Source: a virus
Strand: one strand, 5' to 3'
IMG/VR virus record: IMGVR_UViG_3300020034_000062
Location: 1 to 26,080 of that record
Length of the DNA: 26,080 nt
A program made the translations under genes and the position numbers. The notes under the pieces are model-generated. The model did not search any database. It worked only from the letters and a program-made list of their open reading frames with translations, and was not told the DNA's origin. Of this stretch, positions 11,060 through 19,996 are shown one piece after another. Numbering within the stretch: the stretch's first letter is position 1; each line of letters opens with the position of its first letter.

Positions 11060-12066
11060 ACCCGCACCTCGCAACGAAAAAAAGCGCGTAGCTCACAACC
11101 ACGCGCTTGAGGGTGCCGCAAATGAGGAAGCGGCGAGCACAGGGGGATGGGATCGAGAGTCGCGCGAGCAATGTCCGCGAGCCAACCGACACAGCGCCAA
11201 GGCATGCCATGTGTAACGCATGCCCCCGCCCCGCTTGGTACTCGCCCGACCCTCGAATTCGGTTGTTGGACGTTAGTAGCGATCGCCTCTCGCACGAGAG
11301 AGCAGATCCCACAGCGCGGCCTCTTCTCTTGGCTGTGGCGGACAGTTCTCGAGCGCTTGCTGCAGCCATGCCCAGGCAATGGCCTTGTCGTTGTGGCGCT
11401 TGAGTTCGGCGGCGACGATGCTTTGGGCTGATTCGCGAGCGGGGCCGAGGCCAAGAACTTGGCTGCACTGATCGACGTAGGCGCCTTCAATTCCGGGCAT
11501 GTGATTTCCTTTGTGGTTGATGAAAAATCAGCGCGTGTTTTCACCGCATGCGCGCGCCGCGGGAGGACGCAGTTACAACGATGCGAGCTGATGCACCACG
11601 GCTCGGAATAGATAGTCCTTTGCCTGCTGCTCCCGCGGCAGCTGATCGTACGGGACAAAGCAGGGGTGCTCTTTGAGGTCCGGATCCTTGACGGGGCCGT
11701 ATTTCCAACCGGCTGCTTGTTTCTCGGCGAGCCAGCTGTTGTGCGAGTGATCGGGGCCGGCGTGTGGAGTGCGCAGGTGGAAAGCGACGCCACTGATGGC
11801 GCTGCTGCGCTGCCAGTCCGGTGCATCCTCCCATGCCGGCTGACTGTCATCCCCGAGCGCCGCGCAGTAGGCGCGATTGATTTCGTGGCAGACCTTGGCG
11901 ATTTGCTCTTCTTGCATTGGGTTTCCTGTGTGGTTGATGGAACGACGAACTGTGGGGATGTGAGACGAGCACGGAACCGATTTTTGATCCGCTGTCGGCA
12001 GCAGCAGTACAGCCGAGGTCGGTTGCACACGAAGCAGTAAGGGCCAGTGCCAGGCGTAGCGCTCAT
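11056..12066 (-). CDS. doubtful Cys-rich ORF with no stop of its own
   Basis: ATG 12066 overlaps the stop of the upstream 58-residue gene (ATGA) and has AGAGG six bases before it, so translation could begin here. The first residues hold a zinc-finger-like cluster (YCFVCNRPRLYCCC, residues 10-23). The frame then runs without a stop through the RyR gene and the 75-residue gene in another frame, for 336 codons in all. Only the part before 11917 is plausible as a gene. Either the N-terminal part is a remnant that lost its stop, or the whole frame is chance in GC-rich DNA. Confidence 0.25.
   Translation of the reverse strand: MSATPGTGPYCFVCNRPRLYCCCRQRIKNRFRARLTSPQFVVPSTTQETQCKKSKSPRSATKSIAPTARRSGMTVSRHGRMHRTGSAAAPSVASLSTCALHTPAPITRTTAGSPRNKQPVGNTAPSRIRTSKSTPALSRTISCRGSSRQRTIYSEPWCISSHRCNCVLPRRAHAVKTRADFSSTTKEITCPELKAPTSISAAKFLASAPLANQPKASSPPNSSATTTRPLPGHGCSKRSRTVRHSQEKRPRCGICSLVREAIATNVQQPNSRVGRVPSGAGACVTHGMPWRCVGWLADIARATLDPIPLCSPLPHLRHPQARGCELRAFFRCEVRV
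11077..11108 (-). terminator. intrinsic terminator upstream of the replication cluster
   Basis: Read on the minus strand, the perfect 8-base stem AAGCGCGT / ACGCGCTT (11101-11108 with 11082-11089) with an 11-base loop is followed by an uninterrupted T-run (11077-11083). It lies 164 bases after the stop at 11273 and only 17 bases before the GTG of the LuxR-type gene. The gap 11109-11272 holds no gene I can support. Confidence 0.85.
11273..11500 (-). CDS. hypothetical protein, 75 residues
   Basis: The product starts MPGIEGAYVDQCSQVLGLGP and is largely helical and Ala/Glu-rich (VAAELKRHNDKAIAWAWLQQ), with a basic end. ATG 11500 has a strong ribosome site (AAAGGAAATCAC). Its leader is nearly identical over 18 bases to that of the RyR-domain gene upstream, suggesting shared translational control or descent from one module. 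The family is unknown. Confidence 0.72.
   Translation of the reverse strand: MPGIEGAYVDQCSQVLGLGPARESAQSIVAAELKRHNDKAIAWAWLQQALENCPPQPREEAALWDLLSRARGDRY
11505..11522 (-). repeat. leader repeat, copy 1
   Basis: On the minus strand CATCAACCACAAAGGAAA stands just before the ATG at 11500. It matches copy 2 (11922-11939) at 17 of 18 bases and includes the ribosome site. Confidence 0.75.
11573..11917 (-). CDS. RyR-domain protein
   Basis: A 114-residue protein consisting of one RyR (ryanodine-receptor repeat) domain. Typical motifs are present: VCHEINRAYCAALGDDSQPA (residues 8-27), WEDAPDWQRSS, then HNSWLAEKQAAGWKYGPVKD and HPCFVPYDQLPREQQAKDYL. The domain is common in phages and bacterial operons; its molecular role there is unsettled, and ligand or nucleotide-derivative binding is suggested for relatives. 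ATG 11917 has AGGAAA at good spacing. It lies in the cro-driven early operon, four genes after cro. Confidence 0.88.
   Translation of the reverse strand: MQEEQIAKVCHEINRAYCAALGDDSQPAWEDAPDWQRSSAISGVAFHLRTPHAGPDHSHNSWLAEKQAAGWKYGPVKDPDLKEHPCFVPYDQLPREQQAKDYLFRAVVHQLASL
11922..11939 (-). repeat. leader repeat, copy 2
   Basis: On the minus strand CATCAACCACACAGGAAA stands just before the ATG of the RyR-domain gene (11917). It differs at one base from copy 1 at 11505-11522. Confidence 0.75.
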
Positions 12067-12527: not shown

Positions 12528-12731
12528 TCAGGCGCGATGTTTGCGACGGTTACGTCGCTCGTAGATCGACGGGTCAAACTCCAGGGCGCCATTTGTGAGG
12601 TCATGGAGCCGGCGTGCGGAGAGCTCGGGAATCGAGTCTTTCCACAAGGCAACGGCAGCGGTGCTGATCCTCAATGCCCTGGCGAGTTTCGCCTGACTAC
12701 CGAAATGCGTAACTGCGGTTTCTTTCAGCAT
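12528..12731 (-). CDS. cro: Cro-like repressor
   Basis: A 67-residue DNA-binding protein of the Cro/YdaS type. FGSQAKLARALRISTAAVAL (residues 10-29) is the helix-turn-helix, followed by WKDSIPELSARRLHDLTNGA, the usual continuation in lambdoid Cro proteins. It should bind the operators next to its own start and block cI expression, favouring lytic growth. It is the first gene of the minus-strand lytic operon and diverges from cI across a 72-base operator region. No strong ribosome site precedes ATG 12731. Confidence 0.88.
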   Translation of the reverse strand: MLKETAVTHFGSQAKLARALRISTAAVALWKDSIPELSARRLHDLTNGALEFDPSIYERRNRRKHRA

Positions 12732-12740
12732 GATGCGAAG

Positions 12741-12800
12741 CTAAGCATACCTAGCTTTAAAACACAACCATGCCTAGCTGATCAGTCGCTAAGCTTGCTT
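12741..12800. promoter_or_regulatory. OR-like triple operator between cro and cI
   Basis: Three 12-base sites fit the near-palindrome CTAAGCATGCTT: CTAAGCATACCT at 12741-12752, CTAGGCATGGTT (minus strand) at 12766-12777 and CTAAGCTTGCTT at 12789-12800. Starts are 25 and 23 bases apart, about two helical turns, as in lambda OR1-3. The last site ends three bases before the cI ATG. Promoter boxes for cro and cI are weak and must overlap these sites; the best guess for cro is TATGCT at 12744-12749 as -10. Confidence 0.78.
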
Positions 12801-12803
12801 TGC

Positions 12804-13205
12804 ATGAAAAATCAGCTATGGAAAAACTGCCGCAACTTCGCTGAGCGAATTCAGTGGGCTATAGATCAGGAGGGCGTCACCCAAGCGGATCTCGCAAAGC
12901 ACCTGAAGATCAGCACGGCTGGCATGTCCGAATGGTTCACCGGCATTACCAAGAATCCGAAACTCCTAAACGCTCGCCGCGCGGCGCAGTTCTGTAAGGT
13001 AAGCAGCTGGTGGCTCGCCATCGGAGAGGGCAGCCCGTACGACGGTATCGATTCCGAGTATGACGGGATCAGTGGGCACGACCTGCTCATTGCCAAGGGC
13101 CTCAGCGAGGTGGATGACAGCGGCCTGCGTGGAACAGTTGAAGAGTTAATCGCGGCCCGAAAGGCAACCCAAGGCGAGAAGTCGCAGAAGAAGCGGAAAG
13201 CATGA
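12804..13205 (+). CDS. CI-like repressor lacking the S24 peptidase domain
   Basis: A 133-residue repressor. The N-terminal HTH is clear: RIQWAIDQEGVTQADLAKHL then KISTAGMSEWFTGITKNPK (about residues 14-53), followed by ARRAAQFCKVSSWWLAIGEG, the standard end of CI DNA-binding domains. After about residue 75 only a short acidic then Lys-rich tail follows, with no Ser-Lys autoprotease domain. It should hold lysogeny by binding both operator arrays. The ATG lies three bases after operator 3 with no ribosome site, so a leaderless message like lambda cI is likely. Its stop overlaps the next ATG. Confidence 0.85.
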   Translation: MKNQLWKNCRNFAERIQWAIDQEGVTQADLAKHLKISTAGMSEWFTGITKNPKLLNARRAAQFCKVSSWWLAIGEGSPYDGIDSEYDGISGHDLLIAKGLSEVDDSGLRGTVEELIAARKATQGEKSQKKRKA

Positions 13206-13597
13206 ATTCCATAAAAATTGGAATCAAAATTTTGTCTGAGGTGCTCAGGTGGGCCTGGGCAGTTCTATATTTTAAGTTCAGCGCAATCACCGTAATTTTT
13301 ATGTGCTGGATGCCTATCGCCATGGTGTATGCAGTCGCTACCAGAGGCTGGATAACTTTGCCGGAAGCGTACGCTTCGGCTGCTGAGCTACCCATCTTCG
13401 CTCAAGTAGCCATCGGCGTTTCGATTGTGGTGATCGGAGTACCTGCGTTAATAGTTGCTGCAGTTGCAGCCCCGACGTTCATTGAGCGTTGCGTCCTGTC
13501 AGCGGTCACTGCAATCGCAGTGCATTTTGCCCCAATTTGCAGAGACTTGGGCGCGCCATTTCGCCAAGAGACCTGGAGATTTCTGGCCGGAAAATGA
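13202..13597 (+). CDS. membrane protein in rex position
   Basis: A 131-residue integral membrane protein with about three hydrophobic helices: roughly residues 17-44 (VIFMCWMPIAMVYAV), 65-90 (VAIGVSIVVIGVPALIVAAV) and 94-112. The ATG overlaps the cI stop (ATGA), so it should be translated with the repressor in lysogens. In lambda this location carries rexA/rexB, and RexB is a membrane protein; sequence similarity is not evident. A role in superinfection exclusion or altered membrane state of the lysogen is inferred from location and topology. Confidence 0.8.
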   Translation: MNSIKIGIKILSEVLRWAWAVLYFKFSAITVIFMCWMPIAMVYAVATRGWITLPEAYASAAELPIFAQVAIGVSIVVIGVPALIVAAVAAPTFIERCVLSAVTAIAVHFAPICRDLGAPFRQETWRFLAGK

Positions 13598-13884
13598 TCG
13601 AACTCACGCACGTCGATCTGCCCGAACTCGCTGAAACCTTTGCCGATCGAATCGGTAATTCCACAGCTGACGGCCATCATGTACGAGTAGAACTTTTGGT
13701 GACTCGTCCCGATAGGCTTGAGCCGCCGCACCTGCCAACGGCCAAGACATATCGGGTGGCCCGAATGATACTGACCATGGATTGCGCGATGGCACTTCAT
13801 CGTCAGTTGGCGCTGATGTTTGATGCGCTGGCGAAGCAAGGCGCTCTGAAGTCCGTGGACCACGGACCGAATACGAAGCAGTAG
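13594..13884 (+). CDS. soluble protein in rex position, 96 residues
   Basis: The product begins MIELTHVDLPELAETFADRI, has a central beta-like segment (HHVRVELLVTRPDRLEPP) and a helical end (MDCAMALHRQLALMFDALAK). I do not recognise the family. Its ATG overlaps the stop of the membrane-protein gene (ATGA), placing it in the cI transcript. Together with its neighbours it forms a three-gene cassette between repressor and terminator. The bases at its stop (13878-13897) recur at the end of the next gene. Confidence 0.75.
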   Translation: MIELTHVDLPELAETFADRIGNSTADGHHVRVELLVTRPDRLEPPHLPTAKTYRVARMILTMDCAMALHRQLALMFDALAKQGALKSVDHGPNTKQ

Positions 13885-13897
13885 CTTTCTTGCGCAC
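13878..13897 (+). repeat. gene-end direct repeat, copy 1
   Basis: GCAGTAGCTTTCTTGCGCAC spans the stop codon of the 96-residue gene and matches 14164-14183 at 19 of 20 bases. The two copies enclose the 82-residue gene. Confidence 0.85.
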
Positions 13898-13921
13898 GGC
13901 GACCCCTACCTGAAAATTGCG

Positions 13922-14170
13922 ATGAAAATTAAAGGCCCGGACTTCAAGAAGTACGAAGCCCTTGGCGCGCAACTGATCGCTTACGAGATTGCGATGACCG
14001 CCCTTTTAGACGTCTTGGCCAAAACTCAGCCGTCCACTGCTCGAGCAGTTGGCAAAGCGATTCGAGATAGCGCTCGGCAGGTCGATCAGAAGAAGTACGG
14101 GGCCGTGGTGAAGAAAGCGCTGCTTTACGCGGACATGATCGATACGACCCTGAAGCAGAACCCGCAGTAG
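13922..14170 (+). CDS. small Lys-rich helical protein in rex position, 82 residues
   Basis: The product starts MKIKGPDFKKYEALGAQLIA and is helical and basic (DSARQVDQKKYGAVVKKALL). No known domain is visible. It lies 37 bases after the preceding stop, is not coupled and has no strong ribosome site. It is the last gene before the terminator at 14205. The 20-base repeat at both ends suggests it was inserted or duplicated as a unit into the cI operon. Confidence 0.68.
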   Translation: MKIKGPDFKKYEALGAQLIAYEIAMTALLDVLAKTQPSTARAVGKAIRDSARQVDQKKYGAVVKKALLYADMIDTTLKQNPQ

Positions 14171-14183
14171 CTTTCTTCCGCAC
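14164..14183 (+). repeat. gene-end direct repeat, copy 2
   Basis: GCAGTAGCTTTCTTCCGCAC covers the stop of the 82-residue gene and differs by one base from copy 1 at 13878-13897. Confidence 0.85.
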
Positions 14184-14204
14184 AACAGCACCTCCGATAG
14201 ACCG

Positions 14205-14230
14205 ACCCGGCCCATTGTGCCGGGTTTTTT
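14205..14230 (+). terminator. intrinsic terminator of the cI operon
   Basis: The stem ACCCGGC / GCCGGGT with a seven-base loop is followed by six T (14225-14230). It ends transcription from the repressor promoter just before the second operator region, separating lysogenic from early lytic genes. Confidence 0.92.
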
Positions 14231-14241
14231 GTGATCTCATT

Positions 14242-14300
14242 GTAGGTATGCCTAACTATTTCTACTAAGCATGCTTGACATTGATTTACTAGGCATGCTT
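14242..14300. promoter_or_regulatory. OL-like triple operator
   Basis: Three sites of the same type as at 12741-12800 occur: GTAGGTATGCCT (14242-14253), CTAAGCATGCTT (14265-14276, the full consensus) and CTAGGCATGCTT (14289-14300). Starts are 23 and 24 bases apart. The first is the weakest match to the 12-mer but is itself palindromic (TAGGTATGCCTA). The array overlaps a promoter with a consensus -35 box, so the CI-like repressor should silence the plus-strand early operon in lysogens. Confidence 0.82.
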
Positions 14301-14303
14301 AAC
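14275..14303 (+). promoter_or_regulatory. PL-like early promoter
   Basis: TTGACA (14275-14280) is a perfect -35 box overlapping the second operator. At 17 bases distance lies CTTAAC (14298-14303), a weak -10 inside and beyond the third operator. It points at the gene at 14342 and follows the terminator at 14205-14230. Assignment rests on the -35 box, operator overlap and genome position. Confidence 0.65.
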
Positions 14304-14341
14304 TCCCTCTCACCCCGCACCCCACTCCGGAGCAAAGAGAG

Positions 14342-14497
14342 ATGACCACCACCACCGGCTTGCGAAAGACCGCCACAGCCCAGCTGCAGCGCCTATTGGC
14401 AACGATCGAGTCCAGCGTGGCTAGCACTCGCTGCGCCCTCTCCGAGCAGCAGATCTCAATGTGCCGGGCGATACGGGCCGAGCTGGCCACCCGCTAA
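14342..14497 (+). CDS. small protein, 51 residues, paralogue of 14773-14982
   Basis: This is the first gene after the PL-like promoter. ATG 14342 follows GGAG at good spacing. Residues 15-51 (LQRLLATIESSVAS, ending IRAELATR) are nearly the same as the end of the gene at 14773-14982, and the 62 bases covering both gene ends and the following hairpin are also repeated. It takes the position of lambda N but does not look like an Arg-rich antiterminator. Function unknown. Confidence 0.68.
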   Translation: MTTTTGLRKTATAQLQRLLATIESSVASTRCALSEQQISMCRAIRAELATR

Positions 14498-14535
14498 CCC
14501 CAACACCCACCACGGCGGGGACTGCCCACCCGCCG
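14474..14535 (+). repeat. direct repeat copy 1: gene end plus hairpin
   Basis: It covers the last codons of the 51-residue gene, its stop and a perfect seven-base hairpin CGGCGGG / CCCGCCG (14513-14519 with 14529-14535). It matches 14959-15022 with few changes. The hairpin lies about 13 bases before the next ATG. Confidence 0.88.
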
Positions 14536-14548
14536 AAAGAGAACAACG

Positions 14549-14776
14549 ATGAGCCGCCCATACGAAACCGAATACCGGCACGAGCGCAGGTCCGCCAGGC
14601 ACCGTTGCCTGTGCTGCGCCCGGATTATCAATGCCGGCGAAAGCGTGCTGATGTGGAAAGCATCGGCGAAAGTCACGCGCGTCGTCCACTTGCACCCGTG
14701 TGCCCGAGGCATGGCCTCGCCTCCGCACACTTACCGTGATCTGGCTATCGCTCAGAGCGCAGCGGTGCGCTCATGA
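14549..14776 (+). CDS. putative zinc-binding small protein, 75 residues
   Basis: The product starts MSRPYETEYRHERRSARHRC and holds a Cys/His cluster: HRCLCCARIINAGESVLMW, then VVHLHPCARG, suggesting a treble-clef or zinc-ribbon site. The family is not identified. ATG 14549 follows the hairpin repeat and a purine-rich leader (AAAGAGAACAACG). Its stop overlaps the next ATG (ATGA). It is enclosed by the two copies of the 62-base repeat. Confidence 0.7.
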   Translation: MSRPYETEYRHERRSARHRCLCCARIINAGESVLMWKASAKVTRVVHLHPCARGMASPPHTYRDLAIAQSAAVRS

Positions 14777-14982
14777 ACGCCCGCCACTTCATGGACACCT
14801 TCAGCACGGCCCGAGCTCCGGCGCAAACATCCATGCAGAAAACCCTGGGCATGACGCCCACCGACTCGCTGCAGCGCTTGCTGGCCACGATCGAGGCATC
14901 GGTAGCCGCCAGCGGCACGCCGCTCTCTGAGGGCCAGCAGTACATGGCGGACGGCATCCGGGCCGAGCTGGCCACCCGCTAA
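14773..14982 (+). CDS. small protein, 69 residues, paralogue of 14342-14497
   Basis: The C-terminal half (LQRLLATIEASVAASGTPLS, ending GIRAELATR) repeats the 51-residue gene at 14342, with a different N-terminal part (MNARHFMDTFSTARAPAQTS). Its ATG overlaps the stop of the zinc-binding gene. The paired genes and shared downstream hairpin point to a local duplication followed by N-terminal replacement. Function unknown. Confidence 0.7.
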   Translation: MNARHFMDTFSTARAPAQTSMQKTLGMTPTDSLQRLLATIEASVAASGTPLSEGQQYMADGIRAELATR

Positions 14983-15022
14983 CCCCAACACCCACCAACG
15001 GCGGGGACTGCCCACCCGCCGA
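14959..15022 (+). repeat. direct repeat copy 2: gene end plus hairpin
   Basis: This second copy of the 14474-14535 sequence includes the gene end and the hairpin CGGCGGG / CCCGCCG (14999-15005 with 15015-15021). It again lies about 15 bases before a start codon (15037). Confidence 0.88.
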
Positions 15023-18787: not shown

Positions 18788-19014
18788 CGCAACTTCAGCT
18801 AGACCAAATCCCACCCGCGCCGCCAGCGCCGCAGTTTCGGCCGAGCACCGAGCACTTGGCGGCGCTCATCGCCAATGAGTACGGCGTGAGCGTGGACACC
18901 GCGAAAGACTGGATCGTGCGGGCGTATTTCGACCTCGAGGTGCGCAATCGTCCGCCACGAGGCTCGGAGTATTGGCGCAAGGTGAACATCAAGCGAGGGC
19001 GCAGCCGTGGCTGA
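18784..19014 (+). CDS. hypothetical protein, 76 residues
   Basis: The product starts MTQLQLDQIPPAPPAPQFRP, a Pro-rich N-terminal arm, followed by a helical HTH-like region (LIANEYGVSVDTAKDWIVRA) and a basic tail (WRKVNIKRGRSRG). DNA binding is plausible but unproven. Its start overlaps the previous stop, and it overlaps the DUF5131 gene by eight bases. Confidence 0.66.
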   Translation: MTQLQLDQIPPAPPAPQFRPSTEHLAALIANEYGVSVDTAKDWIVRAYFDLEVRNRPPRGSEYWRKVNIKRGRSRG

Positions 19015-19996
19015 AACAAGCATTGAGTGGACTGCGACCACCGCCCAAGATGGAACGGTGCACGGCGGTTACAGCTTTAACGCATGGGTCGGATGCCAGA
19101 AGATCAGCGTCGGTCCGCAAGGTGCGTGCGAAAATTGCTACGCAGAGTCTTGGGCCAAGCGGACGGGTCAGGTGCATCTTTGGCAAGGCGAGCGGCGCCG
19201 CACTACTGCAGACTATTGGAAACAGCCCATAAAATGGAACGCTAAGTCAGCGAAGCTCGGTGTCCGGTTGAAGGTATTCTGCTGCTCATTGGCCGACGTG
19301 TTCGACAACGAGGTGCCACAGCATTGGCGAACCGCGCTCTTTGCGCTGATCCACGACACGCCGAATCTTGACTGGCTACTACTTACCAAGCGAATCGGCA
19401 ACGCGGCAAGGATGCTGGCAGAGGATGTGCCGGAGGGAATAGATATCTCCGGTCGAGTGTGGCTCGGCGCCACGATCGCCAACCAAGCTGAGGCCGACCG
19501 CGACATCCCGAAGCTGCTGGCGACGCCGGCTCGCCTGCGGTTTCTTTCGTGTGAGCCGCTGCTGGGGCCGATCGATTTGACGCAGCACTTCTGGGGCACC
19601 CACCAGCCTGGAGGGATTTCGTGGTTGATTGCTGGCGGCGAGAGCGGCTCGAAGGCCCGGCCCTCCCACCCTGACTGGTTCCGCTCTTTGCGCGACCAGT
19701 GCGCGGACGCCGGAGTTGCCTACCACCACAAGCAGCACGGCGAATGGATCGAGGCGCACGAACGCACCGGCGAGCTGTGCAGCGACGAGGCCGAGTACGA
19801 GCAAATGGCTGCCGAGTGCGACGGATTCATAAGCTTGGACGGCCGCTTCGTTAGATCGCTCGACGATGCTCACGAAGAGACCCGTTACCGAGGTATGAAG
19901 CGCGTCGGCAAGAAAGCCGCCGGCCGCACGCTCGACGGCAAGGTGTGGGATGAGTTTCCAACAACCGCCCGCGATGGGCTGGAGGGTGGGCGGTGA
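19007..19996 (+). CDS. phage Gp37/Gp68 family protein (DUF5131)
   Basis: A 329-residue protein. It opens TSIEWTATT and has three conserved Cys (30, 41, 44) in VGCQKISVGPQGACENCYAE, then LKVFCCSLADVFD, the LLLTKR motif, WLGATIANQ, RFLSCEPLLGPI and WLIAGGESG, all diagnostic of DUF5131. The Cys cluster and barrel-like pattern suggest a radical SAM-related or iron-sulfur protein, but no reaction is known. The start is GTG 19007 with GAGGG upstream. The C-terminal extension after about residue 235 is charged and less conserved. Confidence 0.9.
   Translation: MAETSIEWTATTAQDGTVHGGYSFNAWVGCQKISVGPQGACENCYAESWAKRTGQVHLWQGERRRTTADYWKQPIKWNAKSAKLGVRLKVFCCSLADVFDNEVPQHWRTALFALIHDTPNLDWLLLTKRIGNAARMLAEDVPEGIDISGRVWLGATIANQAEADRDIPKLLATPARLRFLSCEPLLGPIDLTQHFWGTHQPGGISWLIAGGESGSKARPSHPDWFRSLRDQCADAGVAYHHKQHGEWIEAHERTGELCSDEAEYEQMAAECDGFISLDGRFVRSLDDAHEETRYRGMKRVGKKAAGRTLDGKVWDEFPTTARDGLEGGR

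Follow-up and report, generated by a model that had tools for sequence, protein, structure and literature searches.

A lambdoid immunity region of the P22/phage 21 type with two triple operator arrays and a DicA-like short repressor

Organization of the cro-cI region

The DNA analysed here, in the following called the window, is the entire 26,080-base viral record IMGVR_UViG_3300020034_000062. It contains a cro gene and a divergently oriented cI gene, three small genes behind cI and two arrays of three related sites each, which are designated OR and OL. The features of the region are:

12528..12731, minus strand: cro, 67 aa, P22/DicC-type Cro, no Shine-Dalgarno sequence (Pfam, PDB and NCBIfam matches)
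12739..12767, minus strand: proposed PR, -35 TTGTGT (12767-12762), 17-bp spacer, -10 TTAGCT (12744-12739); weak hexamers, read from the sequence
12741..12754, no strand: OR1, CTAAGCATACCTAG; shares bases with the proposed PR -10; matrix score 19.5 bits
12764..12777, no strand: OR2, ACAACCATGCCTAG; shares bases with the proposed PR -35; lowest matrix score of all six sites (13.9 bits)
12789..12802, no strand: OR3, CTAAGCTTGCTTTG; ends 1 bp 5' of the cI start codon; matrix score 16.3 bits
12804..13205, plus strand: cI, 133-aa repressor with N-terminal HTH (Pfam HTH_3, 23.5 bits; cut-off 23)
13202..13597, plus strand: 131 aa, predicted membrane protein; start overlaps the cI stop codon in an ATGA; no family match
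13594..13884, plus strand: 96-aa protein; start overlaps the stop codon of the 131-aa gene in an ATGA; no convincing family match
13922..14170, plus strand: 82-aa protein, 37 bp downstream of the 96-aa gene; no family match
14204..14226, plus strand: intrinsic-terminator-like hairpin closing the cI operon ahead of OL (terminator scan)
14242..14255, no strand: OL3, GTAGGTATGCCTAA; matrix score 15.6 bits
14265..14278, no strand: OL2, CTAAGCATGCTTGA; right half overlaps the PL -35; matrix score 19.0 bits
14275..14304, plus strand: proposed PL, -35 TTGACA (14275-14280), 18-bp spacer, -10 TTAACT (14299-14304); read from the sequence
14289..14302, no strand: OL1, CTAGGCATGCTTAA; overlaps the PL -10; matrix score 20.5 bits

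In both arrays, the hexamers proposed for PR and PL fall within sites 2 and 1 or border on them. A promoter consensus scan of the region returned no sigma-70-type site, and the proposed PR and PL are weak matches; three of the loci described below (L029, L032 and L051) have a TTGACA that is positioned alike with respect to sites 2 and 1 of their tandem arrays. Terminator-like hairpins are present four times in the region, compared to 1.7 expected in shuffled sequences. Since the 131-aa and 96-aa genes overlap the preceding stop codons in an ATGA, both are probably co-translated with cI, and cI and the genes behind it should form the set that is expressed in the lysogen. As the three genes between cI and OL occupy the position of rexAB in lambda, they are candidates for superinfection exclusion.

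Six related operator sites

The operator unit is a 14-bp palindrome (CTARGCA followed by TGCYTAG), which is present in six imperfect copies centred at 12747, 12770 and 12795 in OR and at 14248, 14271 and 14295 in OL. A first-pass annotation of the window had proposed three related sites between cro and cI and another three ahead of the operon on the plus strand, and sites were indeed found at the starts that it gave. The spacing of 23 to 25 bases that it described agrees with centre spacings of 23/25 bp in OR and 23/24 bp in OL; its exact repeat unit, however, was wrong. The 12-mer CTAAGCATGCTT occurs exactly only once, at 14265, and the copy at 14242 differs from it at four positions. With up to three mismatches on both strands, 19 occurrences were counted in the window compared to 19.9 expected from shuffled sequences.

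This last count is what would be expected if the arrays were chance or low-complexity repeats without a regulatory role, a reading whose probability is close to nil given the results obtained with the palindrome. In the whole-window scan that the annotation had recommended, a half-site matrix derived from all six sites ranked its members 1 to 6 among 26,080 positions (13.9 to 20.5 bits); many equally good sites elsewhere, which it had named as evidence to the contrary, were not found, the best non-member position in the window scoring 9.8 bits against 13.9 bits for the weakest member. In leave-one-out matrices, no non-member outscored the omitted site. A matrix built from OL only ranked the OR sites 3, 5 and 6, and one built from OR only ranked the OL sites 3, 4 and 9. 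Forty shuffles of the window yielded 0.125 sites per shuffle at the threshold of the members and no pairs at a distance of 20 to 28 bp. A finder without a preset consensus scored the OR triple at 168 (mean 118, maximum 150 in 300 shuffles) and the OL triple at 176 (mean 112, maximum 151 in 300 shuffles). The chance reading is also contradicted by the same arrangement in independent phages and by a scan with a scrambled control, which are both described below. The six sites are real and not a product of chance.

The Cro and CI proteins

Cro passes the Pfam family P22_Cro (PF14549) with 59.9 bits at a cut-off of 30.2, matches the structure of P22 Cro (PDB 1rzs) with an E value of 4e-11 and is 47-49% identical to the Cro proteins of P22 and phage 21. 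Its matches to NCBIfam DicC (52 bits, cut-off 130) and Pfam YdaS_toxin (27.1 bits, cut-off 30) lie below the respective cut-offs. The CI protein is less easily classified: its HTH_3 match is barely above the Pfam cut-off, and its best NCBIfam matches, RstR (25.5 bits, cut-off 80) and DicA (22 bits, cut-off 101), are both far below theirs. By these cut-offs, CI and Cro are members of neither the NCBIfam DicA nor the DicC subfamily, though the layout works alike. No Pfam Peptidase_S24 match was obtained for CI in a search in which the repressors of P22 and phage 21 do match S24. Among known phages, the best matches of CI are only 24-42% identical, without a close homolog, and no close homolog was found in the viral contigs either; the DNA of the immunity region showed no similarity to known phages. 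A single-sequence AlphaFold model of CI was set aside, as its mean pLDDT of 51.9 is too low.

The two sub-threshold matches of Cro to YdaS_toxin (27.1 of 30 bits) and of CI to RstR (25.5 of 80 bits) raise the question of whether the genes might form a toxin-antitoxin or other HTH pair of the YdaS/YdaT or RstR kind, whose sites serve autoregulation and not a lysis-lysogeny switch. This is highly unlikely: Cro matches P22_Cro much more strongly (59.9 bits), the flanks carry replication and packaging genes on one side and int and xis on the other, and an autoregulated pair would not be expected to have another array 1.5 kb away at PL.

Comparison with P22, phage 21, lambda and DicA-type systems

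In lambda, three plus three operators overlap PR/PRM and PL, and cI and other genes expressed in the lysogen lie between them. The window resembles lambda in having three plus three operators over PR/PRM and PL, and differs from it in operator sequence, Cro family and the C-terminus of the repressor. In its C-terminal half, the repressor is also not lambda CI-like.

A closer correspondence exists to P22 and phage 21. When applied to these phages, the unbiased finder recovered OR1-3 with TTAAG half-sites and a spacing of 25/23 bp. It also located another array at a distance of 0.8 kb, on the side of cI. The window shares with them divergent cI and cro genes with three operators between, the 25/23-bp spacing of OR, the operator register with its TAAG core, a distance of 9 bp between the cI ATG and the OR3 centre, and a second array (14242-14302) on the far side of cI at the promoter of an oppositely directed early operon. 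Because of its P22_Cro membership, the 25/23-bp spacing of OR and the match to the TTAAG register, the locus can be assigned to the P22/21 type of immunity region with OR and OL. There are also differences: the half-site is TTAAGNN in P22/21 and CTARGCA in the window, so that outer and inner bases differ; OR1 of P22/21 lies 7 bp farther from cro, which is preceded by a Shine-Dalgarno sequence; and two OL sites were found there compared to three in the window. In addition, the repressors of P22 and phage 21 have about 216 aa with a Peptidase_S24 domain, whereas no self-cleaving S24 C-terminal domain was recognized in the 133-aa CI of the window.

Such short repressors are known from the DicA class. 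CI is of the size typical for them (around 130-140 aa), has an HTH as its only recognized domain and is divergent to a DicC/Cro gene. DicA of the Qin prophage of E. coli has 135 aa, lacks a RecA-cleavage site and acts at dicCp and dicBp, which have three operators each; the DicA/DicC switch is bistable and is opened by the antirepressor Rem (PMC10448788). Gifsy repressors of the DicA class are inactivated by LexA-controlled antirepressors (PMC3121763). The window and the DicA-DicC systems of Qin and Rac thus have in common a short repressor without a cleavable C-terminal domain and a divergent Cro of the P22_Cro/DicC family; an arrangement of two divergent promoters with three operators apiece is likewise shared with Qin (PMC10448788), and a Rac-type locus (L015) was examined here. 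In contrast to the window, the DicA-DicC half-sites read TTAGNTA/GTTAG instead of CTARGCA and dicC-type cro genes carry a Shine-Dalgarno sequence; aligned DicA-like repressors are only 18-26% identical to CI.

The recognition helices were compared as the annotation had advised, and those of the window (CI STAGMSEW, Cro STAAVALW) are both unlike those of P22/21 (C2 SNVAISQW, Cro SDAAVSQW). It is plausible that the window phage has a separate immunity specificity. The statement that the operator differs from that of lambda is correct; however, the separation was overstated, as the operators of P22 and phage 21 have the register and TAAG core in common with it, and OR/OL arrays of other phages also contain the AAGCATGCTT core.

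Recurrence of the operator core in other phages

A tandem-site scan of viral contigs returned 15 stretches, compared to zero with a composition-matched scrambled palindrome. Those located between a cI-like and a divergent gene include the OR of L029 and L036 and the group L022/L025/L027/L030/L035; L032 also belongs here, and its tandem-scan match is its second array. Five further contigs (L023, L024, L026, L033 and L034) were not counted as switches, being repeat-rich or without a recognizable cro/cI region; L026 and L034 carry many copies of AATAAGCATGCTTTTT before several small genes, an arrangement that resembles a repeated element at gene starts more than it does an OR/OL pair. The corresponding scan of genome contigs revealed prophage-type ORs in L047 and L051/L057, and many of its 21 matches are Arthrobacter loci that are not phage-like in appearance. 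In L029 and L032, the OR centres have the same distances from cro as in the window (-17, -40 and -65), and a second array of two sites lies on the CI side, 0.85-2.0 kb away, in L029, L032, L036, L047 and L097.

The phages with AAGCATGCTT operators comprise L029, L032, L036, L047 (a Microbulbifer contig), L051/L057, L097 and Pseudomonas phage MPK9. They resemble the window in their P22_Cro-like Cro, a near-identical operator core and OR arrays, and differ from it in the outer half-site bases (GTAAGCA, TTAAGCA, TTARGCA) and in their recognition helices; L051 and L097 additionally have long S24-type repressors. Since the OR/OL arrays of several relatives carry the core, it is not private to the window phage, and its recurrence with different Cro recognition helices makes these phages useful for deriving rules of protein-DNA recognition. 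A full-text literature search for TAAGCATGCTTA returned no phage paper among its matches.

According to Hall et al. 2005, as cited in PMC4488713, recognition helices of Cro proteins correlate with OR half-sites. In the well-resolved arrays of the P22_Cro family, A at operator position -4 accompanies Ala before a Val/Ile helix core, and G accompanies Ser/Thr there, in a tally that ignores kinship among helix groups and in which the SQVAVTRW group is misregistered; L138 and L020 have further Ser helices besides the tally. The Cro of the window has Ala before a Val core, and position -4 of its operators is an A/G mixture in which A predominates (7/12), which fits this correlation. The pattern is consistent with binding of Cro to the sites but no proof of it. 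A P22_Cro search over 369 genomes was set aside, as it gave mostly weak or uninformative matches.

A possible leaderless cro mRNA

The cro gene of the window lacks a Shine-Dalgarno sequence, 7 nt separate the end of the proposed -10 from its ATG and the OR1 centre lies around 16-17 bp before the ATG. The same distance between OR1 and cro and the same lack of a Shine-Dalgarno sequence are seen in L029, L032 and L051, with a similar arrangement in L036 and L102; L255 and L243 possibly belong to this subgroup as well, with poorly resolved arrays. On the other hand, a Shine-Dalgarno sequence is present in every tabulated cro of the P22/21 and DicC types, and in L047, L097 and L098, whose OR1 lies at a distance of 34-35 bp. 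It can be tentatively suggested, on balance with some doubt, that a subgroup of P22_Cro-family phages including the window produces leaderless Cro mRNA, recognizable by an OR1 centre 14-18 bp before the ATG, no Shine-Dalgarno sequence and a -10 end around 5-7 nt before the ATG. The cI transcript from PRM of lambda is near-leaderless. If the suggestion is true, both arms of the window's switch, with its near-leaderless cI, would need leaderless translation, and the lysis-lysogeny decision could be tied to the state of the ribosome or of initiation factors.

A model of the lysis-lysogeny switch

Taken together, the region is very probably the immunity region of a temperate phage of the P22/phage 21 type, in which CI and Cro would act at OR and OL. 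The operator sites, their spacing, the Cro family, the gene order, the promoter overlap and the recurrence in relatives were computed, and the lambdoid OR/OL reading of the first-pass annotation is well supported by gene order, number and spacing of the sites, Cro family and the anatomy of the relatives. Switches of this design are well known; the window contains a real lambdoid one of the P22/21 type with a DicA-like short repressor. From these features, we infer protein binding, the order of occupancy, PRM activation and the route of induction as follows.

In the lysogen, the short CI, presumably as a dimer, would bind OR and OL and shut off PR and PL; it would cover the promoters directly, since OR2/OL2 and OR1/OL1 contain or abut their -35 and -10 hexamers. 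The leftward PR operon with cro, primase/helicase and then packaging and head genes would be silent, as would the rightward PL operon with early/recombination genes, methylase, xis and int. CI at OR2 would also aid transcription from its own weak promoter, PRM, and the near-leaderless RNA made there would contain cI and the following genes up to the terminator before OL. Cro would compete for the same sites and turn off cI at OR3. As CI has no recognized S24 domain, RecA-stimulated self-cleavage is probably not the route of induction; by analogy with DicA and the Gifsy repressors, induction may proceed via an antirepressor or a spontaneous flip between CI and Cro. No LexA-box pattern was found in the window and no antirepressor was recognized among the proteins scanned, though tail genes were likewise not recognized and the record may be a fragment.

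Not all six sites need to be occupied, because DicA was found to bind just one of three OR-like sites in vivo (Oc, but not Om or Oa; PMC3441716). This result from the closest studied system, together with OR2 being the weakest site and the different recognition helices of CI and Cro, could mean that the operators are real but chiefly those of Cro, with the 133-aa protein acting on just one or two of them in an asymmetric switch. We consider this unlikely, as one palindromic consensus is common to all six sites and OL, where the modelled repression by CI matters most, is conserved at least as well as OR. The preferred model, in which CI and Cro act at both arrays, provides a complete and testable map of a lysis-lysogeny switch in a phage for which no close sequenced relative was found in the searches made, and links it to the class of DicA-type short repressors.

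The window contains some further features. Downstream of PL, a module is duplicated (14343-14536 and 14773-15022): its two short genes, of 51 and 69 aa, resemble each other, and behind both stands the same GC-rich, hairpin-like element of 25 nt, ACGGCGGGGACTGCCCACCCGCCGA. The leftward operon encodes a 114-aa protein with a RyR domain (11576-11917; 43 bits), which belongs to phage family phrog_5154 with no assigned function, and a 329-aa protein (19007-19996) strongly matches phrog_2045, which likewise has no assigned function. At around 19457-19566, a stretch of 110 bp shows 81% identity to Xanthomonas citri phage CP2, a hint at a Xanthomonadales-type host.
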